From Rhodocyclales bacterium (lineage in GTDB: Bacteria; Pseudomonadota; Gammaproteobacteria; Burkholderiales; Rhodocyclaceae): a stretch of DNA of 64,000 nt. Position 1 is the first letter of the stretch; every line of letters begins with the position of its first letter. The notes under the pieces were generated by a model that saw nothing but the letters and a program-made list of their open reading frames with translations, searched no databases and had not been told where the DNA came from. The stretch spans positions 1-64,000 of the forward strand of contig JACRIX010000061.1 in the NCBI GenBank assembly GCA_016215645.1, given 5' to 3'. Positions 9,507 to 58,337 of the stretch are shown one piece after another. The position numbers and the translations under genes are program-made.

Positions 9507-9530
9507 GAGTCGGCGCTGGCGGCACGGCGA
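9507..9530 (+). repeat. dispersed 24-bp repeat, copy 1 (intergenic)
   Basis: GAGTCGGCGCTGG-CGGC-ACGGCGA in the 324-bp gap 9463-9786 between the divergent helicase and kinase genes. Apart from this element and undefined promoter DNA, I see nothing else supportable in the gap. It is one of at least 12 copies in the window. Confidence 0.7.
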
Positions 9531-9786
9531 TATGCAAACCCGGATGGACCAGGCGGCAAGGAGGGTGCCCATCCCGCAGGCGGTGGAGGAGGCGCTTGGC
9601 CTGGCGTGCACGCCCTCGCCGACGGTGCCCTCTCGCTGCCAGGACCGAGAGGTGCTCTGGTCGGACGAGGCCGACGCCGACCCGACCGACGACGGTCGAG
9701 CGCTGGATTGGAAACGGCAACGGGCACTGCCCGGCGAGCCCCACGACGGACTATCCATTGCTCGGCGGAAGACATAGACTGCGCGA

Positions 9787-11808
9787 ATGTCATCCAAGGC
9801 CTTCAACCCTGACCAAGGCTGGTTCAGGAGGCTGTTCGAGTCGTCGCCGGATCCGACCTGGATCATCGACGACCACCGATTCGTTGAATGCAACGAGGCG
9901 GCGCTGAGCATGCTCGGCTACCGTAACCGGGTTGAATTTCTCAGCCTGCATCCGTCGAAGCTCTCGCCACCGACCCAGGCCGACGGCGAGGATTCCTACG
10001 CCAAGGCGGAGCGGATGATGTCGATCGCACAGGAGAAGGGGCAGCACCGCTTCGAGTGGACCCATACCCGCGCCGATGGCAGCAACTTCATCGCCGAGGT
10101 CACGCTCTGTGCGATCGACGTCGGCGATCGCCAGGTGCTGTACTGCACCTGGCGCGACATCGGGGCGCGCAAGCGTATCGAGGCGGCGCTGGCAGAAAGT
10201 CAGCGGCGCTTCCGGGCCCTGTCGACCCTGTCGTCCGACTGGTTCTGGCAGCAAGATGAAAACTTCCGCTTCACCGGGTTTTCCGGCGCCTTTGCCCAGG
10301 ACTTCACGCCGCCGGCCGACACCATCGGCAAGACGCGCTGGGAGCTCAACATCGACTTGACGCCGCAGCAATGGGCAGCCCATCGCGCCATCCTCGACGC
10401 CCACCTGCCCTTCCGCAACTTCGAATACCGGATCGCCGACGACAAGGGCGAAGTCCGCTGGTACAGCATCAACGGCGAGCCCTGGTTCGACGACACCGGT
10501 CGCTTTGTCGGCTACCACGGTACCGGCAGCAACATCACCGCGCGCAAGCAGGCGGAAGAGGAAGTCCGCGCGTTCAACGCCGAACTCGAACGGCGCGTCC
10601 GCGCGCGCACCGCCGAACTGGAGCTGGCAAATCGCCTGCTCACTGCGGCCAAGGAGGCTGCGGAGGCGGCCAACCAGGCGAAGAGCGCGTTTCTCGCCAA
10701 CATGAGCCACGAAATCCGTACGCCGATGAATGCCATCCTCGGCATGGCCCACCTGCTGCGCCGCGATCAGATCACGCCACACCAGGCCGAACGCCTCGAC
10801 AAGATCGACGGCGCCGGCAGACATCTGCTGGGCATCATCAGCAACATCCTCGACCTGTCGAAAATCGAAGCCGGGAAGTTCAGCCTGGATGACAGCCCGC
10901 TCGATATCCGGCGTCTGCTCGCCGACGTCACGTCCATCATCGGCGAACGCGCCCGGGCCAGGGGATTGGTCCTGCGTGTCGAATCGGCGACGATTCCAGC
11001 CGGCTTGCGCGGCGACGCCACCCGCCTGCAACAGGCCCTGCTCAACTACGCCAGCAACTCCGTCAAATTCACCGAAGCCGGCACCGTCACGCTGCGCCTG
11101 GAGGTGGAGGAGGAGTCCGGCGACCACGCCCTGCTCCGCTTCACGGTCGAGGATACCGGGGTGGGCATCGGCTCGGAAACCATGGCGCGCCTGTTCAGCG
11201 CCTTCGAGCAGGCGGACAACTCGACCACGCGCAAGTACGGCGGCACCGGACTCGGGCTCGCCATCACTCGGCGCCTGGCCGTGCTGATGGGCGGGCAGGC
11301 GGGGGCCGAAAGCGTTCCCGGCATGGGCAGCCGCTTCTGGTTCACCGCCCGGCTGAAAAAGGGCCGGAACGGCGATGCCGGGGTGGCAGCGGCGATCGGA
11401 CAGGCCGAGGCGGAACTGCGACGCCGCCACGGCGGTTGCAGCATCCTGGTGGTGGACGACGACCTGCTCAACCGCGAAGTCGCGCGACTCCAGCTGGAGG
11501 CGGCCGGCCTGGTGGTCGACACGGCGGAGGACGGCGCCCAGGCAATTGCCCGGGCGCGGCACGCCACCCACGCGGCGATACTGATGGACATGCAGATGCC
11601 GAACATCGACGGCCTCGATGCGACACGGCGGATACGCGAGCTTCCCGGCCATGAGCGCACGCCCATCGTCGCCATGACCGCCAACGCCTTCGCCGAGGAC
11701 AAGGCACGCTGCCTGGCGGCCGGCATGAACGACTTCCTGGTCAAGCCCGTCGTTCCGGAGCAGTTGTTCCTCATGCTGCTGCAGTGGCTCGATCCGGAGC
11801 GGCATTGA
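9787..11808 (+). CDS. hybrid sensor histidine kinase (PAS-PAS-HisKA-HATPase-REC)
   Basis: A 673-aa cytoplasmic sensor with no membrane segment. Two PAS domains lie at about 12-130 and 136-265, the second with a PAC-type end ([17 protein letters not shown]). A short coiled coil leads to HisKA with phospho-acceptor H308 ([11 protein letters not shown]). The HATPase has N-box [15 protein letters not shown] and [12 protein letters not shown]-terminal receiver has VVDDD and acceptor D601 ([11 protein letters not shown]). No DNA-binding output is fused, so it probably signals to a separate partner. It stands alone; the next gene, a TAXI protein, begins 102 bp downstream on the same strand. Confidence 0.9.
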
Positions 11809-11836
11809 CTGGGACGACGACCTGCCGGTGATCGGG

Positions 11837-11860
11837 AAGTCGGCGCTGGCGATACGGCGA
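11837..11860 (+). repeat. dispersed 24-bp repeat, copy 2 (intergenic)
   Basis: AAGTCGGCGCTGG-CGAT-ACGGCGA lies between the kinase stop (11808) and the TAXI gene (11911). The flanks GATCG and CGATC, just outside and at the edge of the element, are inverted copies of each other. Confidence 0.7.
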
Positions 11861-11910
11861 TCTTTCAGCACCAACGCTAGAATCGACGCCATCCCTTCAC
11901 GCCGCGCCCC

Positions 11911-13251
11911 ATGACCTCGCCGAAAATCCTCCTGCTCCATGCCTGGAACCGGCTCACCAACGTCTTCGGTCGCGGCCTGGTCATCACGGTAGGCTCCATC
12001 CTGCTGGTCGGCTTGGTGGTGGCACTGACCGCCTTCCTCTTCCTCAATACCGCCGCACCGCGCACGCTGACCATCACCAGCGGGCCGCCCGGCTCCAGCT
12101 TCCAGCGCACGGCCGAGCGCTACCAGAAGATCCTCGAACGCGAGGGGGTTGCAGTCAAGATCCTGCCCTCCGACGGCTCGGCGGACAACCTGAAGCGCCT
12201 GGCCGATCCGAAGCAGCCTGTCGACATCGGATTCGTGCTCGGCGGCGCGGCGGGCGACAAAACCTACGATCAGCTGCTGTCCCTGGGTGCCGTGGCCTAC
12301 CAGCCATTGACGGTGTTCCATCGCGGCAGGAAGGAAGAACTGCTGTCGGCCTTCAAGGGCCGCCGCATCAACATCGGCCCGGCCGGCAGCGGCACACACG
12401 GCCTGGCGCTGGCGCTGCTCAAGCTCAACGGCATCGCGCCGGGCGACGGCACGGTGATCGACGAGACGGATTTCGAGGATCCGGCGAAGGCGCTCGCCGA
12501 AAATCGCGCGGATGTGATCTTCCTGATGGGCGACTCGACGGACCGCACCGTGATCCGCAAGCTGATGCGCGACGGCGGCGTGCAGCTGTTCAGTTTCACC
12601 CAGGCCGACGCCTATGTGCGGCGCATGCATACGCTGAACAAGCTGCATCTGCCGCGCGGCAGCCTCGACCTGGGCAATGACCTGCCGCCGGACGACATCT
12701 GGCTGATCGGCCCGACGGTGCAGCTGGTGGCGCGCGAATCATTGCATCCGGCCCTGTCCGACTTGCTGCTGGAAGCCGCGCGCGAAGTGCATGGACGCCC
12801 GGGGTTGTATCGCAAGCAGGGCGAGTTCCCCGCCGCGCGTGAAGGCGAGTTCCGCCTCAGCGCCGATGCCACGCGCTACTACGCCACGGGCAAGACCTTC
12901 CTCTACCGGACCTTCCCGTTCTGGCTGGCGACGCTGATCGCGCGCGTGCTGGCCTTCCTGGTGCCCATCGTGCTGTTGCTGCTGCCGGCGCTGAAATTCG
13001 CGCCCATGATCTACCGCTGGCGCATCGAGTCGCGCATCTATCGCTGGTATCAGGTATTGCTGGACCTTGAACGCGAGGCCTTCAAGCCGGACGTCGACGC
13101 CAGGCGCCGCGAAGAACTGCTGCGCCAGCTCGATCACATCGAGTCGGCAGTGAATCGCATCGCGATCCCGGCTTCCTTCGGCGACATGTTCTATGGGCTA
13201 CGCGTTCATATCGGCTTTGTCCGCCGCAACCTGCTGCCGGAAACCCAATAG
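11911..13251 (+). CDS. TAXI-family TRAP transporter solute-binding protein, membrane-anchored
   Basis: Periplasmic substrate-binding protein of the TAXI type, which usually feeds a fused DctQM TRAP permease. The 446-aa protein has an N-terminal membrane helix (about 22-46, VITVGSILLVGLVVALTAF), a binding-protein body with ITSGPPGSSFQ (75) and INIGPAGSGTHG (149), and a second helix near 330-352 followed by a basic cytoplasmic tail. The C-terminal helix and tail are characteristic of a long TAXI subgroup. No TRAP permease gene is adjacent, so the partner must be elsewhere or it acts as a sensor-like orphan. Confidence 0.85.
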   Translation: MTSPKILLLHAWNRLTNVFGRGLVITVGSILLVGLVVALTAFLFLNTAAPRTLTITSGPPGSSFQRTAERYQKILEREGVAVKILPSDGSADNLKRLADPKQPVDIGFVLGGAAGDKTYDQLLSLGAVAYQPLTVFHRGRKEELLSAFKGRRINIGPAGSGTHGLALALLKLNGIAPGDGTVIDETDFEDPAKALAENRADVIFLMGDSTDRTVIRKLMRDGGVQLFSFTQADAYVRRMHTLNKLHLPRGSLDLGNDLPPDDIWLIGPTVQLVARESLHPALSDLLLEAAREVHGRPGLYRKQGEFPAAREGEFRLSADATRYYATGKTFLYRTFPFWLATLIARVLAFLVPIVLLLLPALKFAPMIYRWRIESRIYRWYQVLLDLEREAFKPDVDARRREELLRQLDHIESAVNRIAIPASFGDMFYGLRVHIGFVRRNLLPETQ

Positions 13252-13253
13252 AA

Positions 13254-13279
13254 AACGGCGCGGGGTTTGCCGCGCCGTT
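13254..13279 (-). terminator. terminator between convergent TAXI and hydrolase genes
   Basis: A perfect 10-bp stem (13254-13263 with 13270-13279) has a 6-nt loop. Read on the minus strand it is followed by TTTTC, so it best serves the hydrolase gene at 13298-14467. It starts 2 bp after the TAXI stop and could act in both directions. Confidence 0.7.
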
Positions 13280-13297
13280 GCGTGTCGCCGTTGCCGG

Positions 13298-14467: not shown

Positions 14468-14519
14468 GCGGATTCTCCTTGTTGTGGGGTGGACGTTTCC
14501 ATCGGCGTCAGGCCTCGGC

Positions 14520-15340: not shown

Positions 15341-16129
15341 TTAGTGCAGTTCCTCGACCTTGAGCAAGAGTCGGCGCTGGCGGGACGCCGATTGGGTGCC
15401 ATAGCTGGTGATCGCGCCGGTGCTGCCACGCTGTTCGCCCACCGAGCCGCCCAGTTCCATCCACTCGCCGAGCCGGCCGCTGACGGTGGTGATCAGCCGC
15501 GTGCTGTTCACCGATCCCGGCGCTGCCCCCGCCGTGTCGTCGCGCGGGCTGATCTCCAGGGTCACGCGCTCGCCCGCGAGGCGCGGCGCGGCGACGAAGC
15601 CGGTGCCGAGGTCGCGCTGCACCAGGGTTTCCGACACGACGGCGCCGGCCGGCGTCAGCACCAGTTGCCGCATCGGCAGGAAGTAGCTTTGCCCGACCAT
15701 GATCGCGGCGCGGCCACCGTCGATGGTCTGCACCTGCTGCGCGATGTCGCGCCGGCTGCGGCTGTCCGACTGGTAGAGATGCCCGCGGCCCGAAATCGCC
15801 GTACCGCCGGCGCCGACGTCCACGCGCCCGGTGACGCCGGCGCCGCGATCCGATCCGCTGTCGGCGCCTTCCTGGCGGACGCTGATCATCAGGCGCCGCT
15901 GCGGTGTATCCAGTGCCACGATGAGCTGGCGGATTTCCGCCACGTTGCGCGCCGACGCACGGATGAACAGCTTGTCGTTCATGCCGTTCAGCGCGCCGCC
16001 CGGCTCGACGAAAGGCAGCAATTGCGGCAGCAGCTGCTCGGCGCTGCGGTGGCGCAGGCCGATGATCTCCAGTCCCTGGCCCCAGGCCAGCGCAGACAGA
16101 AAATACAATGCAATAAAGAGTCGTTTCAT
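15341..16129 (-). CDS. exported protein with a secretin N-type domain
   Basis: A 262-aa protein with a signal peptide (MKRLFIALYFLSALAWGQG). Residues about 20-90 (LEIIGLRHRSAEQLLPQLL, then KLFIRASARNVAEIRQLIVALD) match the NolW/secretin N1 fold found in PilQ and GspD. The rest has beta-rich blocks (QQVQTIDGGRAAIMVGQ, FVAAPRLAGERVTLEI) reminiscent of the secretin barrel, but the protein is much shorter than a full secretin. Two dispersed repeats lie inside it, encoding VGAGGTA at 15796-15819 and the C-terminal region at 15368-15391. It may be an orphan periplasmic or outer-membrane protein; role unknown. Confidence 0.7.
   Translation of the reverse strand: MKRLFIALYFLSALAWGQGLEIIGLRHRSAEQLLPQLLPFVEPGGALNGMNDKLFIRASARNVAEIRQLIVALDTPQRRLMISVRQEGADSGSDRGAGVTGRVDVGAGGTAISGRGHLYQSDSRSRRDIAQQVQTIDGGRAAIMVGQSYFLPMRQLVLTPAGAVVSETLVQRDLGTGFVAAPRLAGERVTLEISPRDDTAGAAPGSVNSTRLITTVSGRLGEWMELGGSVGEQRGSTGAITSYGTQSASRQRRLLLKVEELH
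15368..15391 (+). repeat. dispersed 24-bp repeat, copy 3 (in CDS)
   Basis: GAGTCGGCGCTGG-CGGG-ACGCCGA, one mismatch to the consensus, antisense to the last codons of the secretin-domain gene. Confidence 0.6.
15796..15819 (-). repeat. dispersed 24-bp repeat, copy 4 (in CDS)
   Basis: On the minus strand ACGTCGGCGCCGG-CGGT-ACGGCGA, in frame in the secretin-domain gene, encoding DVGAGGTA. Confidence 0.55.
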
Positions 16130-20657: not shown

Positions 20658-21624
20658 GATGGAGTTCCTCGTTCAACGCCGCCAGTTCGGCCAGGTGCAG
20701 CACCGGCACGTCGGTGACGCGGCGCAAGAGCTCGCGCTCGGCCGCATCCTCGACCACGATGCGCGCGGGCCGTCGGCCCTGCAGCAGCCAGCGCGCCTGC
20801 TCCAGGTCGTCGCGCGCCGGCCCCATGCGCAGACCGGGATAGGCGCTGGCGCGTGGCGGCATGGCGATGCGTTGCAGGTCGAGGTTCATGGTGCAGCCAC
20901 GATCCTTGCGCAGAGCGTCGTAGTGCGCCACCAGGCGCGCATGGTCGGCATGGAAGGCGCGCGCCTCGACCACATAGAAGTCGGCGCTGGTGATACGGCG
21001 ACGTATCGCCGGCAGATTGCCCAGGGCCTCGCCCAGGCCTTGCAGGCGCGCACCGGGCAGCCAGCGACGCAGCGCGCGCAGCAGCAGGCCGTCGCCCACC
21101 ACCAGGCTGCGACCGTCGATGGCGGCAAGGAAGCGCCGTTTGCGCTGCAACTCGATGTCGCCGCCGATTTCCAGCGCGACGGCGAGGTCAGCCCCGTCAT
21201 CCTCGGCACTGCGCAAGCCGAGCAGTACCGCGACTTGCGCCAATAGCGGCGGATCGGCGCGCAACGCGGTGCCGGGCAGCAGCAGGGCACCGGCAGGGGC
21301 CGGGGTCGCCCGCGCCGCCGCCTGTTCGTAGCCAACCTGAAGCACCGCGAGATCCGGCGGCAGTTCCAGTTCGCGGCGCAGGTCCATGATCATGTCGGAA
21401 AGCGCGATGTCCTCGGGACACACCGGATCGCAGGCCCCACAGAGCGTGCAGGCGTCGAGCACATCGGCAAGTTCGGTCACCCCGGCGCCGTTCTGCCTTG
21501 CCTTGGCAATGCCCTCGGGGCTGAAGCGCGGATCGCGGCGATGGCGCCACATCGGGCAGACCAGGCGGCACAGGCTGCAGCCGCTGCAGGCGGGATAGTC
21601 GCGGGGATGGGTAGTCGCGTACAT
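20650..21624 (-). CDS. two-[4Fe-4S] ferredoxin-type protein
   Basis: A 324-aa protein whose first 75 residues carry two ferredoxin motifs, CSGCSLCRLVCP and CTLCGACDPVCP, as in GlcF and HdrC-type electron carriers. The remaining 250 residues (arginine- and leucine-rich, with MPPRASAYPGLRMGP near 255) lack the CCG cysteine-rich domains of a full GlcF and have no recognised fold. Its start abuts the FAD-oxidase stop at 21624 and its end overlaps the flavoprotein gene. It may relay electrons between the two flavoproteins. Confidence 0.8.
20978..21001 (+). repeat. dispersed 24-bp repeat, copy 5 (in CDS)
   Basis: AAGTCGGCGCTGG-TGAT-ACGGCGA, antisense within the Fe-S protein gene, where the complementary strand encodes RRITSADF. 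Confidence 0.65.
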
Positions 21625-31815: not shown

Positions 31816-34800
31816 TCACTCCTTCGGCAGGTCATCGAGAAATGCCTTGACGGCCGCCATTTCGCCCTCGAACTCCGTCAGCAGGCCGGCCAGCAGGTCG
31901 CGATCTCCCGATCGCCCGGCTTGCTCGATGGCGGCGCAGATATCGCCGAGCCGCAGCGCGCCCGTGGCGCGCGCCGCCGACTTGAGCTTGTGCGCGGCGC
32001 GCCCCGCCGCTTCGGCATGTCCATCCGCGCAGGCCGCCGACAGCTCGGCCGCGATCGAGGTCGCGCTGGCACGGAATTCGAGCAGAAGCTCATGGATCAC
32101 CGCCGGATCGTCACCCACCAGCGCACCCAGTACGCCGACATCGAGAACCGCAGGAGTCGGCGCCGACGACACGGCGACCGGCCCGGCCGCCGCCAGCCAT
32201 CGATCCAGCACGGCCCCCAGCTTCTCCAGCTGCACCGGCTTGCTCAGGTAGTCATCCATGCCGACCGCGCGGCAACGGTTTGCCTCGTCCTTCAGCGCGT
32301 TGGCGGTCAAGGCGACGATAGGCAGGCGATCACCGGTTTCCGCCGCCCGAATCGCCAGGCTCAACTCGTAGCCGTCCATCTGCGGCATGTGCAGATCGGT
32401 CAGCAGCAGCCCGTAGTCACCACGCTTCCAGTATTCCAGCGCCTCGCGACCGTTGCCGACCACATCCGCGGCATACCCCAGCAAGGCCAGCTGGCGCAGG
32501 ATCACCTTCTGGTTCGTCTCGTTGTCCTCTGCCACCAGGATCAGTCGCCCCTGACGCCTCGCCACGTCCCGCGCCGATCTCCTGGCGGATTCATCCGCCG
32601 CCTGACTGCCCGCCGCATCGCTGCGATACGCGGCTGCCGTAGCGGATTCGCCGGTCGCTTCCGCCACCGGTCGCCCCGCGGCCATGGCCACCGCATCGAG
32701 AAAAGTCCGCGGTTCCAGCACGTTGGCGTCCACCACCACCCAGCCGCCGGCCAGCGTGCGCGGCGTCCGCCGCTGGCCGCGTCCGATGAGCACGAAGCGC
32801 AGGTCCTGGTCGGGCCTGGCGGCGGCGGCTTGCAGGAGATCATCATTCGCCGCCGCCGCGTCGGCGGCATCGATGATCCACACCGTCAGTCCGGGCGTAC
32901 CCGGCTGACGCCGCGCCTGGATCAGGTCCGGTGCTCGCTTCACCGCCGCGCCGCTGTGCGCGAGATAGGCGCCAAGATCATCGGCCACGCCCGGCGAGGC
33001 ACCGACCACCAGGCAGCGCAAGCCAGCCAGTGCCGTCGCGCCCTCGGCAGGAGAGTCCGGCAGCGCCACGAAGGGGATTTGCGCGATGAAACTGGAGCCC
33101 GCGCCGGGCGCGCTGCGTACCGCGATCTTGCCGCCCATCAGCTGCACCAGGTTTCCCGCAATGGCGAGGCCCAATCCGGTGCCGCCGAAGCGTCGGGTGG
33201 TGGAAGCATCCGCCTGGGTGAAGGAGTTGAACAGGCGTGCCTGGGTCGCTTCGTCCATGCCGATGCCGTTGTCGGTCACTTCGAACTCGACCGACAGGCC
33301 CTCGGCGTCGCGCGCCGTCAGGCGCGCCCGCAGCGACACCTTTCCCGGCAGTTGCATGCCGCTGGAAAACTTGATCGCATTGTTTGTCAGGTTGACCAGC
33401 ACCTGGCGCAGCCGCAGCGCATCGCCCAGGACCTGGACGGAAAGCAGCGGGTCGACGAACAGCGTCAGCTCCACCCCTTTGCGCGCGGCGAGGTGGTCAA
33501 GCATCTTGCAGACCTGCGCCAGCACCGCGCTCACCGACATCGGCTCGCGTTCGAGCTCCAGGCGCCCGGCCTCGATCTTGGAGAAGTCGAGGATGTCCTC
33601 GATGATGCCCAGCAGGGAATAGGCCGAGTCGCGGATGGTATCGACGATCTCCACCTGGTAGCCCTTGAGGCTCGTCTGGTGCAGCACATCCACCATGCCG
33701 ATCACGCCGTTCATCGGTGTGCGGATCTCGTGGCTCATCGCGGCGAGGAAGGCCGACTTGGCCAGGCTCGCCTGTTCCGCGTCGTGTCGCGCCCGTTCCA
33801 GCTCCTGCACCACCCGCAGCCGATCGCGAACGTCGCGCAGGATGCCGGTGAAATAGCGCCGGCCATCGACGAAGTATTCGCCGACGGAAAGCTCCATCGC
33901 GATCGGCGAGCCATCCTTGTGCCGGCCGTCGACCTGGCGGCCGACACCAATGATCCGGGCCTCGCCGCCACGACGATAGCGCTCGATATGTTTGTCATGA
34001 TGGGCGCCATCGGCGGGCATCAGCAGCAGCGAAACATTGTGGCCGACAAGATCGGCGGCACCATAGCCGAGGATTCTTTCCACCGCACGGTTGGCGGACT
34101 GGATGATGCCATTCTCGTCAATGCTGATGACGCAATCCACCAGGTTGTCCACCAGCGAGCGGGTTGCCAGTTCGCTGCGGATCAGGGCGGCGTTGGCCAC
34201 CGCCAGGTCATGGGTGCGTTCCTCGACGCGACGCTCGAGTTCCACCGCCGCCTCGCGCAGCGCCTGTTCGGCGGCCTGGCGCAGCGTGACGTCGTGGGCG
34301 ATGCCCTCGACCCCGACGATGGCGCCGGAGGCGTCGCGCAGCGCGACTTCGGAGACCTCCAGCGTGACCCGCCGGCCATCCTTGTGGGCCATCTCGACCA
34401 GATACGGCGGCTGATCCTCGCCGCGCAGGCTGGCTTCGGCCTGCGCCACCACCCCTGGCTGGCCTGGAGGATCGGCAAGGTACGTGGTGAAATGGACGCG
34501 AAATTCCTCCGGTGCATAGCCAAGGATGTTCATCACCGAAGGACCCACGTAACTGAAAATGCCGTCGCAACCCCGCTGGTAGAAGAAATAGTCGGCGCCG
34601 ATGCTTTCCACCAGGCGCCGGAATTTCTCCTCGCTGGCCCGCAGACGCGCGGTATCGCGTGCACGCTCGAGTTCGGCACCGACGCGCAGCGCGCTCAGTT
34701 GCAGCAAAGTGGTAAGGGAGTCGGGCTCGGTGATCGGCTGCCGCCCCACCACGCCGATCACCCCCAGCGGCCGTTGCTGGCTGTCGAACAGCGGCGCTCC

Positions 34801-38173: not shown

Positions 38174-38446
38174 TCAATGCACCTGCGCGAAGTTTATTCG
38201 TAGATTACGCGACAAGCTGCGGTGATTACGTAGGCTTGCCCCCGCCGCGTCAGGCAACGGCCCGGCAACCATGCCCATGCCGGCGGTGACGTCGGCGCGG
38301 ATGCGGGCGCCAAAGCGGGGTGCCGGCTTGATCTCGCCGCAGAGATGGACGGTCGGATTCAGCTGCGCCTCGTCGGTTGAGGCCAGGTAGCGGGCGGCGG
38401 CCAGGGCCCGTGAATTCGGCCGGCCGGGTATGGCAAGCGGTTTCAC
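38174..38446 (-). CDS. small protein of unknown function after the MCP gene
   Basis: A 90-aa frame starting at GTG 38446, 14 bp after the MCP stop, with GGGAG as a plausible ribosome site. The first 70 residues (MKPLAIPGRPNSRALAAAR, then HLCGEIKPAPRFGARIRAD, GMGMVAGPLP) look like a real soluble protein. The last 20 run into the duplicated promoter-like block at 38192-38233, so the native C-terminus may be altered. Family not recognised; the position suggests co-transcription with the chemoreceptor. Confidence 0.5.
   Translation of the reverse strand: MKPLAIPGRPNSRALAAARYLASTDEAQLNPTVHLCGEIKPAPRFGARIRADVTAGMGMVAGPLPDAAGASLRNHRSLSRNLRINFAQVH
38192..38233 (-). promoter_or_regulatory. duplicated 42-bp promoter-like block (copy B)
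   Basis: About 34 of 42 bases are identical to 41560-41601. On the minus strand it reads CCGCAGCTT, 12 nt, ACGAATAA, which loosely resembles a flagellar sigma-28 promoter (AGTTT, 11-12 nt, GCCGATAA). It lies upstream of the giant sensor kinase gene. Confidence 0.35.
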
Positions 38447-38460
38447 GGCGGACTCCCGGT

Positions 38461-40107
38461 TCAGAAGCGTTCGAAGTCACCGCCGGCCACCGGCGCGGCA
38501 GTCGCGCTACGTACCGTCTTCGTTGGGCGAAGTTCGGGAGCCGGTGTCGCCGGACAGCTACGCTTCGCCGTACCACCAGCGCCGACTCTTGAACCCCCCT
38601 GCGCCTCGACCCTGAAGAACCCCATCAGCTCCTGGAGTTGGGCGGCCTGGCCGCCCATTTCTTCGGCGGTGGCGGCGAGTTCTTCAGACGCCGAGGCGTT
38701 CTGCTGCGTGGCCTTGTTCAGCTGCCCCATGGCGCCGTTGATCTGGCCCACGCCGGCGGATTGTTCCTGGCTCGATGCGGCGATTTCCTGCACCAGGTCC
38801 GAGGTCTTCCTGATGCTGGGCACCATCGCGTCGAGCAGCTTGCCGGCCTGTTCGGCCATCTTGACGCTCGACCCGGCGAGTTGCCCGATCTCCTGCGCGG
38901 CGACCTGACTCCTTTCGGCGAGCTTCCTGACTTCGGCGGCGACGACGGCAAAGCCCTTGCCGTGTTCGCCGGCACGCGCGGCTTCGATCGCGGCGTTGAG
39001 CGCCAGCAGGTTGGTCTGGTAGGCGATGTCGTCGATGATGCCGATCTTGTCGGCGATCGACTTCATGGCCTCGACCGTGTCCTTCACCGCCTTGCCGCCC
39101 TGTTCGGCTTCGACCGAGGACTGGGTGGCCATGTTGTCGGTGACCTTGGCGTTCTCGGTGTTCTGGGTGATGGATGCGGTCATCTGTTCGATGCTGGCGG
39201 TGGTTTCTTCAACGCTGGCGGCCTGCTCGGAACTCGATTGCGAGAGCGACTGCGCGGTGGCGGACACCTGGCCGGAAGCGTTGGCCAGCGCATCGGCCGC
39301 GCCCTTCACGTCGCCGATGATCTGCGACAGCTTGACGACCATGCCCTTGACGGCGGCCAGCATGCTCGCGCTGTCACCGGTGGACGTCTCGATGCGGACC
39401 GAAAGGTCGCCGCCGGCGACGGCCTGGACCACCTCCGACACATAGGCCGGTTCGCCGCCGAGCTGCCGGAGTACGTTGCGCGAGATCAACCAGCCGAAGA
39501 TCGCAACCAGCAGAACCGAAATGACGCCCAGGGCGATGATCAGGCTTTCGGTTGCCGTCACCAGTTCCTCGGCATCCTTGCCGGACCTGGTCATCATCTC
39601 CGCCTGGAAATTGATCAGCTTTTCCACGGTGGCGAGATACTCGGTCTGGGTCCGGCGCAGCTCACCCTGCATCAGGGACACGATGTCCGCCTTCTTGTCG
39701 GCCTTCAGCAGTTCGATGAACTTGTCCTGCGTCGCAATATAGGCCAATCGCGCATTGCCCAGATTCTTGATCAGCTCGCGCCCTTTTTCGCTCTTGATGG
39801 ATTTGTTCAGTTTCTCGAGGTTGTCGCTGATGATTTTTCGCTGCGCGGGGATGGCGTCCAGCGCCTTTTGCTGTTCGGCGCCCGAGTAGATGTAGGCATT
39901 GCGCAGCTGGCGAGCGATGGTGTGGATCGCGTCGCCGATGTCGCCCGCCGACCGGGTCTTGGGAAACCGGTCCTCGACCATCAATTGGATGCCGTCGCTG
40001 AGCGCTTCCAGCCGGACGTAGCTCACCGTGGCGATGATCACCAGCAGGGCCAGGGTGACCGCATAACCGATTCCCAGGCGAACGCCTAGTTTGAGATTGT
40101 TGAACAT
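38461..40107 (-). CDS. methyl-accepting chemotaxis protein
   Basis: A 548-aa chemoreceptor. TM1 is at about 10-30, a four-helix-bundle periplasmic domain runs to residue 185, and TM2 at about 190-210 is followed by HAMP ([22 protein letters not shown]). The signalling tip is [43 protein letters not shown], cited here in parts: [20 protein letters not shown] and [16 protein letters not shown]. The protein ends GGDFERF, which resembles the C-terminal NWETF-type tether for CheR. Its last third shares a 115-bp near-identical segment with the remnant at 40933-41165. It lies downstream of cheW. Confidence 0.93.
38565..38588 (-). repeat. dispersed 24-bp repeat, copy 6 (in CDS)
   Basis: On the minus strand GAGTCGGCGCTGG-TGGT-ACGGCGA, in frame in the MCP C-terminal region, encoding RVGAGGTAK. 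Identical to copy 7. Confidence 0.65.
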
Positions 40108-40185
40108 GATGCGGACTCCTTCTGCGATGTGGCGAAACGTCTGTGTGCGCCGTTGCCGGTGCGTTGGATAGCGGGTAGTGCGTGC

Positions 40186-40923
40186 TTACGGCCATGGCCT
40201 GGGAACTGACGGGCGAACATCCGCCGAGGCTGCGGATGCGGAATCGGTTGCATGGCCCCCGCCCGGCGCCGCCAACTGCCAGGCGGCCACGGCAATCAGG
40301 ATCAGGGCCGCCACCGCCCACGGCGTCCAGTGGCGAGGCGCGTGCGGAGTCGGCGGCGGGGTCGCGGCGGGCTTCCTGTCGGCGGCGCGCGCCACCGCTT
40401 GGGGCTTGACCGGCAGCGGGTCGGCCGCCGCCAGTCTTTGCAGGTCGAGAAGCGTCACCGGCCGGCCGTCGCAGTGGCTCATGCCGAGCACGTACTCGCC
40501 GCGAATTCCCGACGGACTCGGCCGCGCGGGACGGATGGCGGCGACCGGCAGTTCGGCAATCGTCCAGGCCGCGTCGACCATGATGCCGATGTCGTTGCAG
40601 TCATCGCCGCTGCGCACCCGCAGCACCATGATGCAGCTGCGCAAGGAGATCGCGCTTCGCGCTCCGCCCATGCGCGTGTCGAGATCGATCACCGGCAATA
40701 TGCTGTCGCGCACCCGGATTACGCCGCGCAGGTAACCGTTCATTCCGGGAACCGCGTCAACCGGGCAGAATGGAAGGATCTCGCGGACTTCGCGCACATC
40801 CGTTGCGTAGAGCTCGCCGCCATGCTCGAAGGTCAGGTACAGGCGCGTCTTCGCCTGGTTGACACTGTCGCCGGGCATGGATGCCCGGGGCTCGGCGGGC
40901 AGGATAGGAGGGTGCTTTTCCAT
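40186..40923 (-). CDS. cheW: CheW-domain protein with a C-terminal membrane helix
   Basis: Chemotaxis coupling protein linking receptors to CheA. Residues about 25-170 form the CheW domain (TRLYLTFEHGGELYATDVREVREI, given in parts: ELYATDVREVREIL, VPGMNGYLRGVIRVRDSILPV, VIDLD, GMSHCDGRPVTLLDLQRL). Unlike normal CheW (about 160 aa, soluble), it continues through a proline-rich linker to a hydrophobic helix WAVAALILIAVAAWQLAA (about 205-222) and a short tail, so it is probably membrane tethered. It starts 9 bp after the MCP remnant and precedes the intact MCP gene. Confidence 0.88.
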   Translation of the reverse strand: MEKHPPILPAEPRASMPGDSVNQAKTRLYLTFEHGGELYATDVREVREILPFCPVDAVPGMNGYLRGVIRVRDSILPVIDLDTRMGGARSAISLRSCIMVLRVRSGDDCNDIGIMVDAAWTIAELPVAAIRPARPSPSGIRGEYVLGMSHCDGRPVTLLDLQRLAAADPLPVKPQAVARAADRKPAATPPPTPHAPRHWTPWAVAALILIAVAAWQLAAPGGGHATDSASAASADVRPSVPRPWP

Positions 40924-40932
40924 GATTCGGAG

Positions 40933-41165
40933 CTACTGGGTCTGGTAGCGCTCAAAGCGGCCCGCGACTGCCGGCCCATTGCTGGCAGTCGAACCCGCCC
41001 GCTTCGCCGTACCACCAGCGCCGACTCTTGAACCACCCTGCGCCTCGACCCTGAAGAAAGCCATCCGCTCCTGGAGTTGGGCGGCCTGGCCGCCCATTTC
41101 TTCGGCGGTGGCGGACACCTGGCCGGCGGCGTTGGAGAGTTGTTCCGACGCGAGCCTGGCCGTGG
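40933..41165 (-). pseudogene. remnant of a second methyl-accepting chemotaxis protein
   Basis: The frame encodes [22 protein letters not shown] and then [30 protein letters not shown], the C-terminal end of an MCP. The block 41000-41114 is almost identical to 38561-38675 in the intact MCP. The start of the remnant resembles the earlier MCP segment [11 protein letters not shown], so an internal deletion between two similar SATA/AATA sequences seems to have removed the signalling tip. The frame is open to ATG 41337, but no receptor part remains. Confidence 0.7.
41004..41027 (-). repeat. dispersed 24-bp repeat, copy 7 (in pseudogene)
   Basis: On the minus strand GAGTCGGCGCTGG-TGGT-ACGGCGA, identical to copy 6 and within the same duplicated segment. 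Confidence 0.65.
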
Positions 41166-41277
41166 CGCACCAGGCCGGCCTCTGGCGAGGCCAGGCAGAG
41201 GGCTGGTTGCCGGATACGGCAAGACATCCGGGATACCGCGGAAGGAGAAACTGCCTGTCTGAAAGATCCGACCCTGC

Positions 41278-41362
41278 CATGCGTCGCTCCATGTTCCTGG
41301 AGGCACATCGCCTGAGGCGGTGCGACTCCGGTTTCATAAGCGAGGCAGTTTTCAGGGCCTCG
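41278..41362 (-). ncRNA. duplicated 85-nt block, possible structured leader (copy A)
   Basis: Gapless counterpart of 37989-38073. On the minus strand it contains the hairpins GTCGCAC...ATGTGCC (loop TCA, imperfect) and CTCCA-GGAACA-TGGAG. It lies between the promoter-like block at 41560-41601 and the MCP remnant/cheW. It also falls in an open frame starting at 41337, but most differences from copy B change the amino acid, which argues against protein constraint. Confidence 0.35.
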
Positions 41363-41559
41363 ATACTGCGGCGACTGCTTCAGCCGCTTGCGTTGTGTCC
41401 TGCGTCGATACCGATGATGCCGGTGACGGGAGATCCTTCACCACCGGCGGCGGTGGGTGCCACGTTGCAGGGCGCCAACCCGGGTACATTGCCTTGATGT
41501 CCTCCCGGACGAATGTCGAGGTCCGGTACAAGCGAATTCTGTCGAGCTGGCGGACAATT

Positions 41560-50449: not shown

Positions 50450-50480
50450 GCGCCTCTTCCCGCGACACACGGAAATCGAC

Positions 50481-51998
50481 ATGGCTTATCAGTTCATAAA
50501 TGCCGCCGACCTCGTCGGTCACTGGATCAACGGCCAGCCCGATGCCGGCGGCGGCCAGCGCCGCGGCGAGGTCTACAACCCGGCGCAGGGACGCGTGGCG
50601 CGCCGGGTCGCGCTGGCCTCCCGCGCCGACGTTGATCGCGCGGTGGCCGCAGCGAAGGCGGTCGCGGCCGACTGGGGATCGGCCGCACCGCAGCGCCGCG
50701 CCCGGGTGATGTTCAAATTTCGTGAGTTGGTCGAAACGTACCAGGCCGACATCGCCCGCCTGCTTTCCGCCGAACACGGCAAGACCCTGCCCGACGCCCT
50801 GGGCGAGGTGCAGCGCGGCCTCGAAGTCATCGAGTTCGCCTGCGGCATTCCGCAGCTGCTCAAGGGCCAGCATTCGCATGGCATCGGCGGCGGCATCGAC
50901 CACTGGCACCAGCGCATGCCGCTGGGCGTCACGGCCGGCATCACGCCCTTCAACTTCCCTTTCATGGTGCCGATGTGGATGGCGCCGATGGCGCTGGCCT
51001 GCGGCAATACCTTCATCCTCAAGCCCTCCGAGCGTGATCCCTCGCCGTCGCTGTTCGCCGCCGAACTGCTGCACGAGGCCGGGCTGCCGGCCGGCGCCTT
51101 CAACGTGGTGCAGGGCGACAAGGAGGCGGTGGACGCGCTGCTCGAACATCCGGACGTGCAAGCGATCTCGTTTGTCGGCTCGACCCCGATCGCCAAATAC
51201 ATCCAGGCGCAGGGGATTGCCCACGGCAAGCGCATACAGGCCCTGGGCGGGGCCAAGAACCACATGCTGGTGATGCCCGACGCCGACCTCGACGGTGCCG
51301 CCGACGCGCTGATCGGCGCCGCCTACGGCTCGGCCGGCGAACGCTGCATGGCGATCTCGGTGGCCGTGGCCGTGGGCTCCTGCGCCGACGCGCTGGTGGC
51401 CAAGGTGGTCGAGCGCGCAAAGAAACTGAAAGTCGGCGCTGGCGACACGGCGAATGTGGACATGGGACCGCTGGTCACCGGCATCCACCGCGACAAGGTG
51501 GCCGGCTACATCGCCGCCGGCGTGCGGGAAGGCGCCACGCTGGTGCTCGACGGCCGCCAGGGCTTGACGGGCGAACTGGCGCAAGGCTACTTCATCAACC
51601 CGACGCTGTTCGACCACGTGACCACCGGCATGAGCATCTACCAGGAAGAGATCTTCGGCCCGGTGCTCTGCGTGGTGCGCGTGCCGACCTTCGCCGAAGC
51701 CGTGGTGCTGATCAACCGCCACGCCTTCGCCAACGGCGTTGCCTGCTTCACCCGCGACGGCGGCACGGCCCAGGCCTTCGTGCAGAAGATCGAGGTCGGC
51801 ATGGTCGGCATCAACGTGCCGATCCCGGTGCCCATGGCCTGGCATTCCTTCGGCGGCTGGAAGGCGAGCCTGTTCGGCGACCACCACATCTATGGCGAGG
51901 AAGGCGTGCGCTTCTACACCCGCTACAAGGCCATCATGCAGCGCTGGCCGGGGTCGGAATCCAAAGGGCCCGAGTTCGTCATGCCGGTCAACAAATGA
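50481..51998 (+). CDS. mmsA: CoA-acylating methylmalonate/malonate-semialdehyde dehydrogenase
   Basis: Oxidises (methyl)malonate semialdehyde with CoA and NAD to propionyl- or acetyl-CoA plus CO2. The 505-aa protein has GHWINGQ at the start, [50 protein letters not shown], the catalytic C289 in [26 protein letters not shown] and [12 protein letters not shown], the full MmsA pattern. ATG 50481 gives [15 protein letters not shown]. First gene of a three-gene operon with ATGA overlaps. One dispersed repeat encodes VGAGDTA at 51430. Confidence 0.93.
51430..51453 (+). repeat. dispersed 24-bp repeat, copy 8 (in CDS)
   Basis: AAGTCGGCGCTGG-CGAC-ACGGCGA, in frame in mmsA, encoding KVGAGDTAN. Confidence 0.65.
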
Positions 51999-53617: not shown

Positions 53618-54564
53618 CCGGCCCGCTGATTGATTACCACAACGGCATCTTTGCCTTCGATGCCGGCTACGTGCGGCCGCTGCTGGCGGCCATCCACCTG
53701 ATCGAGAGCGAAGGCCGCACGGCCTTTGTCGACACCGCCAACTTCGAGGTCATGCCGCAGGCGCTGGCGGCGCTGGAAGCGCGCGGCCTCGGCCCGGAGA
53801 GCGTGGACTACGTGATCCTGACCCACATCCACCTCGACCACGCCGGCGGCGCCGGGGTGATGATGGAGGCCTTCCCCAAGGCCAAACTCGTGGTGCATCC
53901 GCGCGGCGCGCGGCACATGATCGAACCCTCGAAACTGATGGCCGGCGTCGAGGGGGTTTACGGCCAGGAGCGGGCGCGACGCATGTACGGCAAGCTGATC
54001 CCGATTCCCGCCGAGCGCATCATCGAGGCCCATGACAACACCGTGCTCACGCTCGGCTCGCGTGAGCTGCTGTGCATCGACGCACCGGGACATGCGAAAC
54101 ACCACATCGCCATCGTCGACCGCCAATCGAGCGGCATTTTCACCGGCGACACCTTCGGCATTTCCTATCGCGAACTCGACGTCGATGGCAAACCGCTGAT
54201 TTTCCCGTCATCGACGCCGATCCAGTTCGACCCCGACGAGATGCGCGCCTCGATCGAGCGCATGCTCTCCTTCAATCCGGACGCGGTCTATCTCACGCAT
54301 TTCAGCCGCCTCGCCCCGCCCGCCGAGCTGGGGCAGAAAGTGCTGCGCCTGCTCGACCGCTACGTCGATATCGCGCTCGCTGCCAGCACCGCCGACGACA
54401 AGACCGCCGCGATCCGCGACGGCCTGACCCAGCTCCTGCTCGACGAGGCGCGCCACCACGGCGTGCACATCTCGGACCAGAACATCCTGGAAATCTGGCA
54501 CCTCGACCTGGAGCTAAACGCCCAGGGCCTGGCCTACTGGCTGGAGTCGCAGGAAGCGGCCTAG
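53614..54564 (+). CDS. metallo-beta-lactamase-fold hydrolase
   Basis: A 316-aa zinc-dependent hydrolase of the MBL superfamily. Metal ligands are seen in THIHLDHAGG (near residue 70), PGHAKHH (150), FTGDTFG and YLTHFS. The long C-terminal helical region (residues 235-316) is an extension beyond the core. ATG 53614 overlaps the GMC stop by ATGA. In this operon it may open a lactone or hydrolyse a thioester made by the other two enzymes, but this is inference. Confidence 0.88.
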   Translation: MTGPLIDYHNGIFAFDAGYVRPLLAAIHLIESEGRTAFVDTANFEVMPQALAALEARGLGPESVDYVILTHIHLDHAGGAGVMMEAFPKAKLVVHPRGARHMIEPSKLMAGVEGVYGQERARRMYGKLIPIPAERIIEAHDNTVLTLGSRELLCIDAPGHAKHHIAIVDRQSSGIFTGDTFGISYRELDVDGKPLIFPSSTPIQFDPDEMRASIERMLSFNPDAVYLTHFSRLAPPAELGQKVLRLLDRYVDIALAASTADDKTAAIRDGLTQLLLDEARHHGVHISDQNILEIWHLDLELNAQGLAYWLESQEAA

Positions 54565-54626
54565 GCATCCAACTCCCGTAAGGCAAGTCACCGAATCAAC
54601 CTGCGCCGCAATCGCGGCTGAACACC

Positions 54627-57029
54627 ATGGCCATCAAGAAATCCGAGCTTTACTCTTCCCTCTGGGCATCCTGCGACGAGCTGCGCGGCGGCATGGACGC
54701 CAGCCAGTACAAGGACTACGTGCTGGTCATGCTGTTCATCAAGTACGTCAGCGACAAGTACGCCGGCGTGCCCTTCGCCCCGATCCAGATTCCCAAGGGT
54801 GCATCCTTCCGCGACATGGTCGCCCTCAAGGGCCAGCCCGACATCGGCGACCAGATCAACAAAAGGATCATCGCGCCGCTGGCCAACGCCAACAAGCTGG
54901 CCGACATGCCGGACTTCAACGATGCCGGCAAGCTCGGCAGCGGCAAGGAGATGGCGGACAAGCTCAGCAACCTGATCGCCATCTTCGAAGACCCCGCGCT
55001 GGATTTCTCGAAGAACCGCGCCGAGGGCGACGACATCCTCGGCGACGCCTACGAATACCTGATGCGCCACTTCGCCACCGAGAGCGGCAAGAGCAAGGGC
55101 CAGTTCTACACCCCGGCCGAAGTCAGCCGCATCATGGCCAGGATCATCGGCATCGGCGGCGCCGGCACGACGAACAATACGACCGTGTATGACCCGACCT
55201 GCGGCTCGGGATCCCTGCTGCTGAAAGTCGGCGCTGAAGCCACGGCGAAGGTCACGCTCTACGGCCAGGAGAAGGATGCGGCCACCAGCGGCCTGGCGCG
55301 CATGAACATGATCCTGCACAACAATCCCGGCGCGCTGATCATGCAGGGCAACACCCTGGCCGATCCCAAGTTCAAGGATGGCGAAGCCCTCAAGACCTTC
55401 GACTACGTGGTCGCCAATCCGCCGTTTTCCGACAAACGCTGGAGCACCGGCTTCGACCCGCTGCACGACCCTTACGAGCGCTTTCAGACCTTCGGCGTGC
55501 CACCGGCCAAGCAGGGCGACTACGCCTACCTGCTGCACATCGTCCGCTCGCTCAAGAGCACCGGCAAGGGCGACTGCATCCTGCCCCACGGCGTGCTGTT
55601 CCGCGGCAACGCCGAGACCGAGATCCGCCGCAAGCTGGTCAGGCGCGGCTACATCAAGGGCATCATCGGCCTGCCGGCCAACCTGTTCTACGGCACCGGC
55701 ATCCCCGCCTGCATCGTCGTCATCGACAAGCAGGACGCCCAGGCGCGCAAGGGTATTTTCATGCTCGACGCCAGCGCCGGCTACATCAAGGATGGCCCCA
55801 AGAACCGCCTGCGCGAACAGGACCTGCACAAGATCGTCGACGTCTTCACCCGCCAGGACGACAGCGACCCGAAGTACGCGCGCCTGGTCGGCGTGGCCGA
55901 GATCGAGAAGAACGACTACAACCTCAACCTGCCGCGCTATATCGACAGCAGCCAGGCCGACGACAAGCAGGACATCGAAGGCCACCTCAGGGGCGGCATC
56001 CCGGCGGCGGATGTCGATGCGCTGGCGCACTACTGGACCGTCTGCCCCAAGCTCAGAGCCGCGCTGTTTCGACCCAATCGCCCCGGCTACCTCGAGCTCG
56101 CCGTTGAGAAAGCCGCAATCAAGGCCACCATCTTCGGGCACCCGGAGTTCAAGGCCTTCATCGCCGGCATCAAAGCCCACTTCGCCACCTGGCGCGAGCA
56201 AAGCGCCGCCGTGCTGAAAACCCTGGAACCCGGCTTCCACCCCAAGGCACTGATCGAGCGCATGTCCGAGAGCCTGCTCTACTCCTTCACCGACCAGCCC
56301 CTGCTCGACCCCTACGACATCTACCAGCACCTGATGGACTACTGGGCCGAAACCATGCAGGACGACGCCTACCTGATCGCCGCCGATGGCTGGAGGGCCG
56401 AGACCTACCGCCTGATCGAGAAGGACAAGAAGGGCAAGGAGAAAGACAAGGGCTGGGCCAGCGACCTGCTGCCCAAGACTTACATAGTCGCCCGCTACTT
56501 TGCCGCCGAGCAGGCCGCCATCGAGCAGTTAAGCGCCGAACTCGACGCCACCGCCGCCCGGCTCGCCGAACTCGAAGAGGAACACGGCGGCGAGGATGGC
56601 GCGTTTTCCGGCTTCGACAAGATCAATGCCGCCGCAGTGAAGGACCGCATCAGAGAAGTCAGCGCTGACGATACGGCGATCGATGAACTCACCGTGCTCA
56701 AGCAATGGCTGCAACTCGCGGCCGACGAAGCGACGCAGAAGAAACAGCTCAGGGAGGCTGAAGCCGAACTCGACGCCAAGGCTTACGCCCATTACCCCAG
56801 GCTCAGCGAAGTGGAGGTCAAGACGCTGGTGGTGGACGACAAATGGATCGCCGCACTCGATGCCGCGATCCACGGCGAACTCGACCGCATCAGCCAGACC
56901 CTGACCCGGCGCGTCAAGGAACTTACCGAGCGCTACGAAGCACCGTTGCCGCAACTGACCGGGCGCGTCGCTGAACTCGAAGCCCGCGTGAGCCGCCACC
57001 TGAAAAAGATGGGTTTCGCATGGATGTGA
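54627..57029 (+). CDS. hsdM: type I restriction-modification methyltransferase subunit HsdM
   Basis: Adenine-N6 methyltransferase subunit of a type I R-M system. The 800-aa protein has the HsdM N-terminal helical domain, the SAM-binding DPTCGSGSLLL (D189), and the catalytic NPPF (N264-F267). GQFYTPAEVSRIMA is typical. It is longer than the usual 500-aa HsdM: residues about 480-800 add a coiled-coil-rich region (AELEEEHGGEDGAFSGF) ending in VAELEARVSRHLKKMGFAW. No strong ribosome site precedes ATG; a small GCCGC-AATC-GCGGC hairpin does. Two divergent dispersed repeats lie inside. It overlaps hsdS by 10 bp. Confidence 0.93.
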   Translation: MAIKKSELYSSLWASCDELRGGMDASQYKDYVLVMLFIKYVSDKYAGVPFAPIQIPKGASFRDMVALKGQPDIGDQINKRIIAPLANANKLADMPDFNDAGKLGSGKEMADKLSNLIAIFEDPALDFSKNRAEGDDILGDAYEYLMRHFATESGKSKGQFYTPAEVSRIMARIIGIGGAGTTNNTTVYDPTCGSGSLLLKVGAEATAKVTLYGQEKDAATSGLARMNMILHNNPGALIMQGNTLADPKFKDGEALKTFDYVVANPPFSDKRWSTGFDPLHDPYERFQTFGVPPAKQGDYAYLLHIVRSLKSTGKGDCILPHGVLFRGNAETEIRRKLVRRGYIKGIIGLPANLFYGTGIPACIVVIDKQDAQARKGIFMLDASAGYIKDGPKNRLREQDLHKIVDVFTRQDDSDPKYARLVGVAEIEKNDYNLNLPRYIDSSQADDKQDIEGHLRGGIPAADVDALAHYWTVCPKLRAALFRPNRPGYLELAVEKAAIKATIFGHPEFKAFIAGIKAHFATWREQSAAVLKTLEPGFHPKALIERMSESLLYSFTDQPLLDPYDIYQHLMDYWAETMQDDAYLIAADGWRAETYRLIEKDKKGKEKDKGWASDLLPKTYIVARYFAAEQAAIEQLSAELDATAARLAELEEEHGGEDGAFSGFDKINAAAVKDRIREVSADDTAIDELTVLKQWLQLAADEATQKKQLREAEAELDAKAYAHYPRLSEVEVKTLVVDDKWIAALDAAIHGELDRISQTLTRRVKELTERYEAPLPQLTGRVAELEARVSRHLKKMGFAWM
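55225..55248 (+). repeat. dispersed 24-bp repeat, divergent copy 9 (in CDS)
   Basis: AAGTCGGCGCTGA-AGCC-ACGGCGA, in frame in hsdM, encoding KVGAEATAK. Confidence 0.45.
56656..56679 (+). repeat. dispersed 24-bp repeat, divergent copy 10 (in CDS)
   Basis: AAGTCAGCGCTGA-CGAT-ACGGCGA, in frame in hsdM, encoding EVSADDTAI. Confidence 0.45.
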
Positions 57030-58294
57030 GGGAGCCCAGCGCCAAGTATCTGGCGAGGCCTGCCTACAAGCATACTGAGGTGGGCGTGATTCCTGAAGAT
57101 TGGGAGGTACGCTGCATCAAGGAATTTGCTGAAGTAAAGGGAGGCAAGCGATTGCCTCTTGGCTGGCTTGTTACGGGTGAGGTAACGCCACACCCCTACT
57201 TGCGAGTTACAGACATGAGGCCGGGAGGCGTAGACCTACGGGACATAAAGTACGTACCCGAGGAAGCCTTCCCGCCAATTCGAAACTACAGAATTTTCGT
57301 GGAAGACATTTTTATCAGCGTTGCCGGAAGCCTCGGTATCGTTGGGAAAATTCCTCAAGAACTGGATGGTGCAAATCTCACCGAGAACGCCGACAGAATT
57401 ACGGCTATTCAGTGCAGTCGCGATTATCTTTTGTATTGGCTGCTTTCAGACAAGATTCAAGGAACCATAGAAGCGGAGAGAACTGTTGGCGCGCAACCAA
57501 AACTTGCACTGAATCGAATTGAAGACTTTGCGATAGCGCTGCCGCCAACCTATGCCGAGCAACAAGCCATTGCCGAAGCCCTGAGCGATGCAGAAGCGCT
57601 GATCGAATCGCTGGAACAACTGCTCGTCAAGAAGCGCCAGATCAAGCAAGGCGCGATGCAGGAACTGCTCCGTCCCAAGCCCAGCGATGAAATTCGATTG
57701 TTGCGAGAAGTGTCGTCGCTGAAGGGGCGAATTGGATGGCAAGGGTTAAAGCAGGCGGAGTTTTCGTCTAACGAAGACGAACCCTTCCTGATCACCGGTA
57801 TGAATTTCAAAGATGGTGCCATTGCGTGGGATCAGGTCTACCACATCTCCGAAGCCCGCTACGAAATGGCACCCGAAATTCAGTTGGCGGCGGGTGATTT
57901 ATTGATGACCAAGGATGGAACGATTGGGAAAGTTCTTTACATCGATACGATCCCCTTCCCCGGCAAAGCCTCACTTAACAGCCATCTGCTTTTATTTCGT
58001 CCAATTCGAGGCAGCTATAACCCGAAGTATCTGTATTACCAGCTGAGTACTGAACGCTTCAAGAGTTTCGTTGAGCTCAGTAAGTCGGGCACAACTTTTT
58101 TTGGTTTGTCCCAAACGGCTGTCGGCGCATATCCAGTACTGCTCCCACCCATCGAAGAACAAACCGCCATCGCCACCGTCCTCTCCGACATGGACGCCGA
58201 ACTCGCCACGCTGGAGGCCAAACTCGCCAAGGCCCGCAATCTCAAGCAAGGCATGATGCAGGAACTGCTGACCGGGCGGATACGCTTGGTCTGA
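57020..58294 (+). CDS. hsdS: type I restriction-modification specificity subunit HsdS
   Basis: DNA-recognition subunit with two target recognition domains (TRDs). The 424-aa protein has TRD1 (about 15-175), the conserved helix PPTYAEQQAIAEALSDAEALIESLEQLLVKK in parts (PPTYAEQQAIAEALSD, LIESLEQLLVKKRQIKQGAM), TRD2 (about 225-375), and the second helix PPIEEQTAIATVLSDMDAEL with AKARNLKQGMMQELLTGR. TRD DNA is clearly more AT-rich than the conserved parts, a sign of TRD exchange. Recognition sequence unknown. It overlaps hsdM by 10 bp. Confidence 0.93.
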   Translation: MDVREPSAKYLARPAYKHTEVGVIPEDWEVRCIKEFAEVKGGKRLPLGWLVTGEVTPHPYLRVTDMRPGGVDLRDIKYVPEEAFPPIRNYRIFVEDIFISVAGSLGIVGKIPQELDGANLTENADRITAIQCSRDYLLYWLLSDKIQGTIEAERTVGAQPKLALNRIEDFAIALPPTYAEQQAIAEALSDAEALIESLEQLLVKKRQIKQGAMQELLRPKPSDEIRLLREVSSLKGRIGWQGLKQAEFSSNEDEPFLITGMNFKDGAIAWDQVYHISEARYEMAPEIQLAAGDLLMTKDGTIGKVLYIDTIPFPGKASLNSHLLLFRPIRGSYNPKYLYYQLSTERFKSFVELSKSGTTFFGLSQTAVGAYPVLLPPIEEQTAIATVLSDMDAELATLEAKLAKARNLKQGMMQELLTGRIRLV

Positions 58295-58313
58295 GGGTCG
58301 GCCTGCTTCCGGG

Positions 58314-58337
58314 GCGCCGTCCCGCCAGCGCCGACTT
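58314..58337 (-). repeat. dispersed 24-bp repeat, copy 11 (intergenic)
   Basis: On the minus strand AAGTCGGCGCTGG-CGGG-ACGGCGC, 20 bp after the hsdS stop. The remaining 190 bp to the next gene show nothing else I can support. Confidence 0.65.

Follow-up and report, generated by a model that had tools for sequence, protein, structure and literature searches.

A dispersed repeat of 24 bp recurs along the 64,000-nt stretch of DNA analysed here (positions 1 to 64,000 of contig JACRIX010000061.1, assembly GCA_016215645.1 of a Rhodocyclales bacterium; hereafter, the window), where its copies lie both inside and between genes. Scoring the window against RAGTCGGCGCTGGYGRNACGGCGA at up to 3 mismatches recovered, on their strands, the 12/12 copies that an earlier sequence-only reading had listed, and no others; its claim that they exceed chance in 64 kb also holds, with 0 matches in 100 dinucleotide shuffles. 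The pattern as it was written there, with fixed flanks and a variable centre, fits six of the twelve exactly (9507, 11837, 20978, 38565, 41004, and 51430) and the other six with one (15368, 58314), two (15796, 32154, 56656), or three (55225) mismatches.

Three copies had been placed between genes, and a simple gene caller puts four of the twelve there. They are found in the upstream region between a DinG-like helicase gene (− strand) and a hybrid histidine kinase gene (+ strand) (9507..9530, +), between a hybrid histidine kinase gene and an NMT1-like gene (11837..11860, +), between called genes (41004..41027, −), and directly downstream of hsdS (58314..58337, −); the intergenic status of the 9507 copy hinges on the start codon chosen for the helicase gene. 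Within genes, a gene with weak secretin similarity holds one antisense copy near its end (15368..15391, +) and one sense copy (15796..15819, −; peptide VDVGAGGTAIS), and further antisense copies lie in a 4Fe-4S protein gene (20978..21001, +) and near the 3' end of a CHASE/PAS hybrid histidine kinase gene (32154..32177, +). Sense copies are located near the 3' end of a chemotaxis receptor gene (38565..38588, −), in an aldehyde dehydrogenase gene (51430..51453, +), and twice in hsdM (55225..55248, +, LKVGAEATAKV; 56656..56679, +, REVSADDTAID). About 60 bp upstream of the 41004 copy are nearly identical to those at 38565, and this near-repeat (38400-41400) is perhaps the remnant of the end of a second chemotaxis receptor gene. 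The region 54627-63083 encodes a type I restriction-modification system, hsdM, hsdS, and hsdR, with an AlbA_2/HATPase gene between them.

Abundance and placement of the word

In the genome to which the window belongs (3.41 Mb in 106 contigs, 79.6% complete), 252 forward and 282 reverse copies were counted at up to 3 mismatches, 534 in all, and the reversed pattern gave 0. By number of mismatches (0 to 4), 462.5 kb of this genome hold 17, 18, 21, 16, and 9 copies, with 0, 0, 0, 0, and 1 for the reversed control, which equals the word from five mismatches on; 400 kb of genome G002 (a single contig of 3.80 Mb) hold 17, 26, 24, 11, and 8, with none for the control. Conservation extends about 2 bases (R, A) upstream of the 24-bp word, to about 26 bp in total, and the flanks beyond are near background. 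These sharp edges, an information content of about 37 bits, and the return to control counts at five mismatches strongly support the earlier suggestion of a recognition sequence. The two strands are used about equally, with no overall preference (252/282 in the genome of the window and 77/71 among 148 copies in G002). An apparent strand-polar signal in part of G002 was discarded as a listing artefact, the sequence of 2.1-2.3 Mb having 31 copies on the − strand and 17 on the + strand at up to 5 mismatches.

Placement was analysed for 167 sites at up to 4 mismatches in 862.5 kb from both genomes, with simple gene calls that miss some genes, a fault shared by the random-placement control. Wholly within genes lie 106 of the sites, distributed over five of the six frames (49, 25, 17, 12, and 3); 3 run across gene edges and 58 are intergenic, against 25.4 ± 4.7 expected by random placement under the same gene calls. 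Close pairs are scarce, spacings under 300 bp making up 0.6% vs. 5.8% expected and those under 1 kb 10.6% vs. 18.2%. Site density climbs with the guanine plus cytosine (GC) content of 5-kb windows (quartiles with 26, 37, 45, and 58 sites; rho 0.42), a trend that is weak evidence for a shortage of the word in foreign DNA because the word itself is GC-rich.

As a check, the sequence-only reading had proposed a genome-wide count set against a codon-shuffled control, and the signal withstands both the reversed-pattern count given above and the shuffling. The called genes of the same 862.5 kb contain 97 matches at up to 3 mismatches, whereas ten synonymous-codon shuffles leave a mean of 9.7 and ten full codon shuffles 0.1; therefore, the protein sequence itself has been moulded to the word. 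Ten site-bearing genes match NCBIfam models, namely hslU, alaS, mutY, queA, dnaX, fmt, lysA, uppS, glmU, and purK.

Carriers, dialects and phages

The genus of the analysed genome, g1, appears to be Sulfuritalea-like, and Sulfuritalea is assigned by the NCBI taxonomy to the Sterolibacteriaceae, Betaproteobacteria. Exact matches, among the matches listed, belong to records of Sulfuritalea, Rugosibacter, Sulfurisoma, Rhodocyclaceae or Rhodocyclales bacteria, and a few broader names. All 30 other g1 genomes sampled carry the word at up to 3 mismatches, 27 of them with 352-749 copies and the remaining three with 44 (G017), 162 (G022), and 232 (G026), and 30 genomes of other genera hold 0-4 copies each. 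The exact 22-bp core is present in 15 of 399 genomes of the order and occurs more than three times only in the genome of the window (151) and in G284 (26). A looser pattern reveals G061 (453), G186 (544), and G284 (327), all in the same family; it finds at most 7 copies in each of the rest of the genomes of the order, where the reversed control reaches up to 4. The exact left half of the word, AAAGTCGGCGCTGGC, occurs 24-401 times in 37 of 297 genomes of the family, representing six of its 68 genera (g1, g32, g36, g166, g192, and g215), and 0-10 times in the other 260. Across the class, only the genome of the window has more than 2 matches among 369 genomes. The word is thus nearly restricted to one family. 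Two members of carrier genera are nearly empty, with 3 left halves in G017 and 0 in G655; these may have lost the word naturally and could help to identify its receptor.

The word takes a different form in each carrier genus. Logos built from stretches of each genus, with 31 to 86 sites per sample, differ at set positions: the g1 form ends in ACGGCGA and that of g192 is near to it, g32 prefers GGACGGCAC, g166 has T in GGTGCTGG, g215 favours A in front of the variable base and varies more at its end, and g36 misses the final A. Reversed-matrix controls for these dialects gave 0 or 1 match. No other dialects emerged in motif-free genera from a 12-mer count in 40-kb samples of 8 genomes plus G017, a count of low power that missed the known carrier G284 too.

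The exact core is also found in at least 120 stretches of metagenomic viral contigs (L218-L337; 1.14 Mb, some stretches sharing one contig), which hold 186 sites at up to 3 mismatches, 66 of them beyond one per stretch. The viral copies occupy 108 distinct contexts and all six frames, as far as a crude choice of frame can tell. Among ten proteins scanned from these stretches are a RecE-like nuclease, a DNA polymerase, a primase, DNA methyltransferases, a head-tail adaptor/portal protein, and one whose match is DarB-like (antirestriction). The possibility that the contigs are mere host DNA was rejected, given that they encode phage-family proteins and that only 11 of the 120 stretches match any of the host-type sequence compared, which is a small part of that of the hosts. 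G follows the exact core in 82 of 134 viral instances; in hosts, A leads at this position (10/15 in the genome of the window and 20/30 in G002). Because this G differs from the genera sampled here, the main hosts of the word-bearing phages may use a dialect outside them. Among the viral stretches, the word recurs in one coding context, which in L246 lies within a DNA methyltransferase gene, and in L248:884-2239 five copies are spaced 316 to 385 bp apart.

At five of seven loci examined in other families of the order, stray copies have genes for a phage integrase, primases, a transposase, or a restriction methylase close by. Against annotated phages and plasmids, a query of 42 bases that carried one variant of the word, with limited sensitivity to other variants, gave partial matches only (6 and 22 records, none covering 80%). 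The host aldehyde dehydrogenase gene was not found in the viral contigs, a result that is given no weight.

Origin of the word and its predicted function

How the word arises can be followed in orthologous genes. The stretch of alaS that holds the site aligns without gaps in 28/28 genomes; motif-free members of the family encode peptides such as TVGNGVAAK or TVGNNVTAK, whereas Sulfuritalea encodes mainly KVGNGVTAK or KVGGGVTAK, and once KVGAGVTAK, with codons shifting towards the word. With a slightly looser pattern at up to 4 mismatches, the alaS site is present in 15/18 Sulfuritalea, 1/3 other carriers, and 0/7 motif-free members, all the Sulfuritalea sites being near-matches with 2 to 4 mismatches. 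In hslU, under the same pattern and mismatch limit, the site sits in a loop of variable length in 17/19 Sulfuritalea (six perfect), 2/3 other carriers, and 0/7 motif-free members; G017 lacks both the alaS and the hslU sites. These codon alignments indicate that the word forms in place by substitutions and argue against a mobile element. Broader comparisons covered 80 of 117 named loci (L031-L110), which were chosen for holding a site, so that the share of pairs with a site is inflated. For 366 sites, 47 orthologue pairs were obtained, 30 with the site and 17 without it, the latter showing identical spacing in eight cases, other length differences in eight, and a shortfall of about 30 bp in one. 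By blastn, 73 pairs comprised 46 conserved, 8 diverged without a gap, and 19 with small gaps, and in none of the 73 was there a clean empty site with a gap of at least 18 bp.

Over-representation, occurrence on both strands and in several frames with no orientation bias, in-place gain and decay by substitution, and dialects in related genera are features by which DNA uptake sequences are recognized, and all of them were found for this word. Thus, the repeat is probably a DNA uptake sequence, as judged from comparative sequence data, similar in kind to those of Neisseria and Haemophilus but 24-26 bp long and found in a third bacterial family. Among the options that the sequence-only reading had offered, an uptake signal best fits the comparative evidence. 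The competence machinery would include a DNA receptor, most likely a minor pilin of type IV, that prefers the word to other DNA; word-bearing fragments from kin would then enter through ComEC and recombine with the chromosome. Because this would favour alleles with the word, sequences close to it would change in place towards the consensus, on both strands and in all frames, as far as the encoded protein allows. The dialects of genera would diverge along with their receptors, and the word would also accumulate in phages that infect these hosts. In this reading, we infer the bias in uptake, the receptor, and the recombination loop. ComEC is encoded in 30/31 members of g1, and minor-pilin genes adjoin the matches to the ComP_DUS family.

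Several observations weigh against an uptake sequence. ComEC also occurs in 25/30 genomes outside g1 and does not distinguish carriers from non-carriers, and no ComEC match was found in the 79.6% complete genome of the window. ComP_DUS-family pilins occur in 34/35 genomes tested, carriers or not, and the family was discarded as a discriminating receptor for this lack of specificity. The overall variation in spacing resembles that of random placement (coefficient of variation 0.93 vs. 0.98 ± 0.07). A 14.8-kb site-free stretch of G002 (57% GC) carries cytosine-methylase and TrwB-like genes, but it is one of three long stretches without sites that were inspected, and the other two hold ordinary genes, so these stretches do not establish a depletion of the word in foreign DNA. 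One of the 17 site-less orthologue pairs is about 30 bp shorter, as an insertion or deletion would give. The alaS tree does not unite the carriers in one clade, but alaS may itself have moved. The length of the word also far exceeds the 9-12 nt that known uptake words have in the available part of PMC12616744. Within the alaS tree, G015 (g1) groups with G435 (g166) and G542 (g32) with G254 (g34), a hint that genera have exchanged genes or that some genus labels should be checked; G655 is on a long branch.

The main rival explanation is that the word is the site of a chromosome-organizing, segregation, or replication protein peculiar to these genera, with copies maintained because the chromosome needs them. 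The strictness of the word (about 37 bits), its sharp edges, and its hundreds of copies with few close pairs would suit such a protein, whose site and that of a receptor cannot be separated by sequence alone. Nevertheless, the balance of strands, the occurrence of the word in many phage contigs and, in other families, close to mobile genes, the genus dialects, and the near-empty G017 and G655, which would be surprising for an essential system, make this explanation unlikely. The presence of the word on host chromosomes and phages alike could also reflect a Chi-like or other recombination or repair signal that protects or stimulates DNA and is used by phages as well, but the length of the word and its balanced strands, unlike those of known Chi sites, render this very improbable.

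A small mobile repeat, such as a miniature inverted-repeat transposable element (MITE) or a repetitive extragenic palindromic (REP) sequence, copied to new places, would account for the many dispersed copies, their sharp edges, and the single shorter orthologue pair. This option, also raised by the sequence-only reading, is hard to reconcile with the stepwise substitutions in the gapless alaS alignment, the lack of gaps of at least 18 bp at the aligned sites, the absence of a palindrome, and the several frames kept open within conserved genes, and we give it scarcely any credence; an insertion element was rejected on the alaS codon alignments. Lastly, the survival of about 10% of the in-gene matches under synonymous shuffling would be expected if the word simply followed from conserved peptides, for example KVGAGDTA, or from base composition. 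The spread over five frames, both strands, and intergenic sites, the collapse of the matches under full codon shuffling, and the absence of the word from other genomes of like composition refute that idea, whose probability is practically negligible.

A wider reading is about as likely as not: self-specific uptake would have a third lineage with the longest known word, at least six genera with dialects in one family, a new receptor, and phages carrying the word, so that phage genes would share the transformation traffic. Such an environmental group, with its longer word and at least six dialects, would allow a test of receptor-word co-evolution. Moreover, freshwater and groundwater bacteria of the Sulfuritalea type would be marked as likely self-selective transformers, and the word would serve as a sequence tag for gene and phage flow in metagenomes.

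Comparison with known systems

The word shares some traits with other repeated sequences of bacterial genomes. Chi sites are likewise frequent short words that occur in phages too, but they are of 5-8 bp and polar to replication, whereas the word described here is long and balanced between the strands genome-wide. REP and MITE repeats are similarly dispersed in hundreds of copies; the present word differs in being non-palindromic, in arising in place by substitution, and in lying mostly inside genes, and the clean, repeat-length empty sites that mobile repeats leave in orthologues were not found in any of the 73 aligned pairs. With regard to the uptake words proper, the most that it shares with what we take to be the meningococcal DNA uptake sequence (DUS), which has a CTG core, is TGCCGTC, on the other strand, which is a lead and no proof of descent. 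It also differs from what we take to be the word of the Pasteurellaceae uptake signal sequence (USS), so it is not a USS proper.

The closest parallels are provided by these two systems, the only two families to which uptake words are credited in the available part of PMC12616744, and no report of an uptake sequence in the present group was found among the matches listed for the open-access PMC literature. The DUS of the Neisseriaceae, read by the minor pilin ComP, is also abundant, on both strands, within and between genes, and diversified into genus dialects that follow the lineage, according to an excerpt of PMC3630211. However, the DUS has 10-12 bp vs. 24-26 bp here and another sequence, so the present word is not a Neisseria DUS proper, and the DUS dialects counted in the same excerpt have 2,245 to 5,918 copies, whereas most genomes here hold about 350 to 750 when up to 3 mismatches are allowed. 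The USS of the Pasteurellaceae is similarly abundant, with no general orientation bias and about 65% of its copies within open reading frames in H. influenzae (PMC2346458, in part), and it is gathered by the phages that lysogenize its hosts, one cluster excepted (PMC6776037, in part), as the word is in viral contigs; it differs in being an unrelated word with a 9-bp core (PMC1626085, in part), in hosts of another class in NCBI terms.

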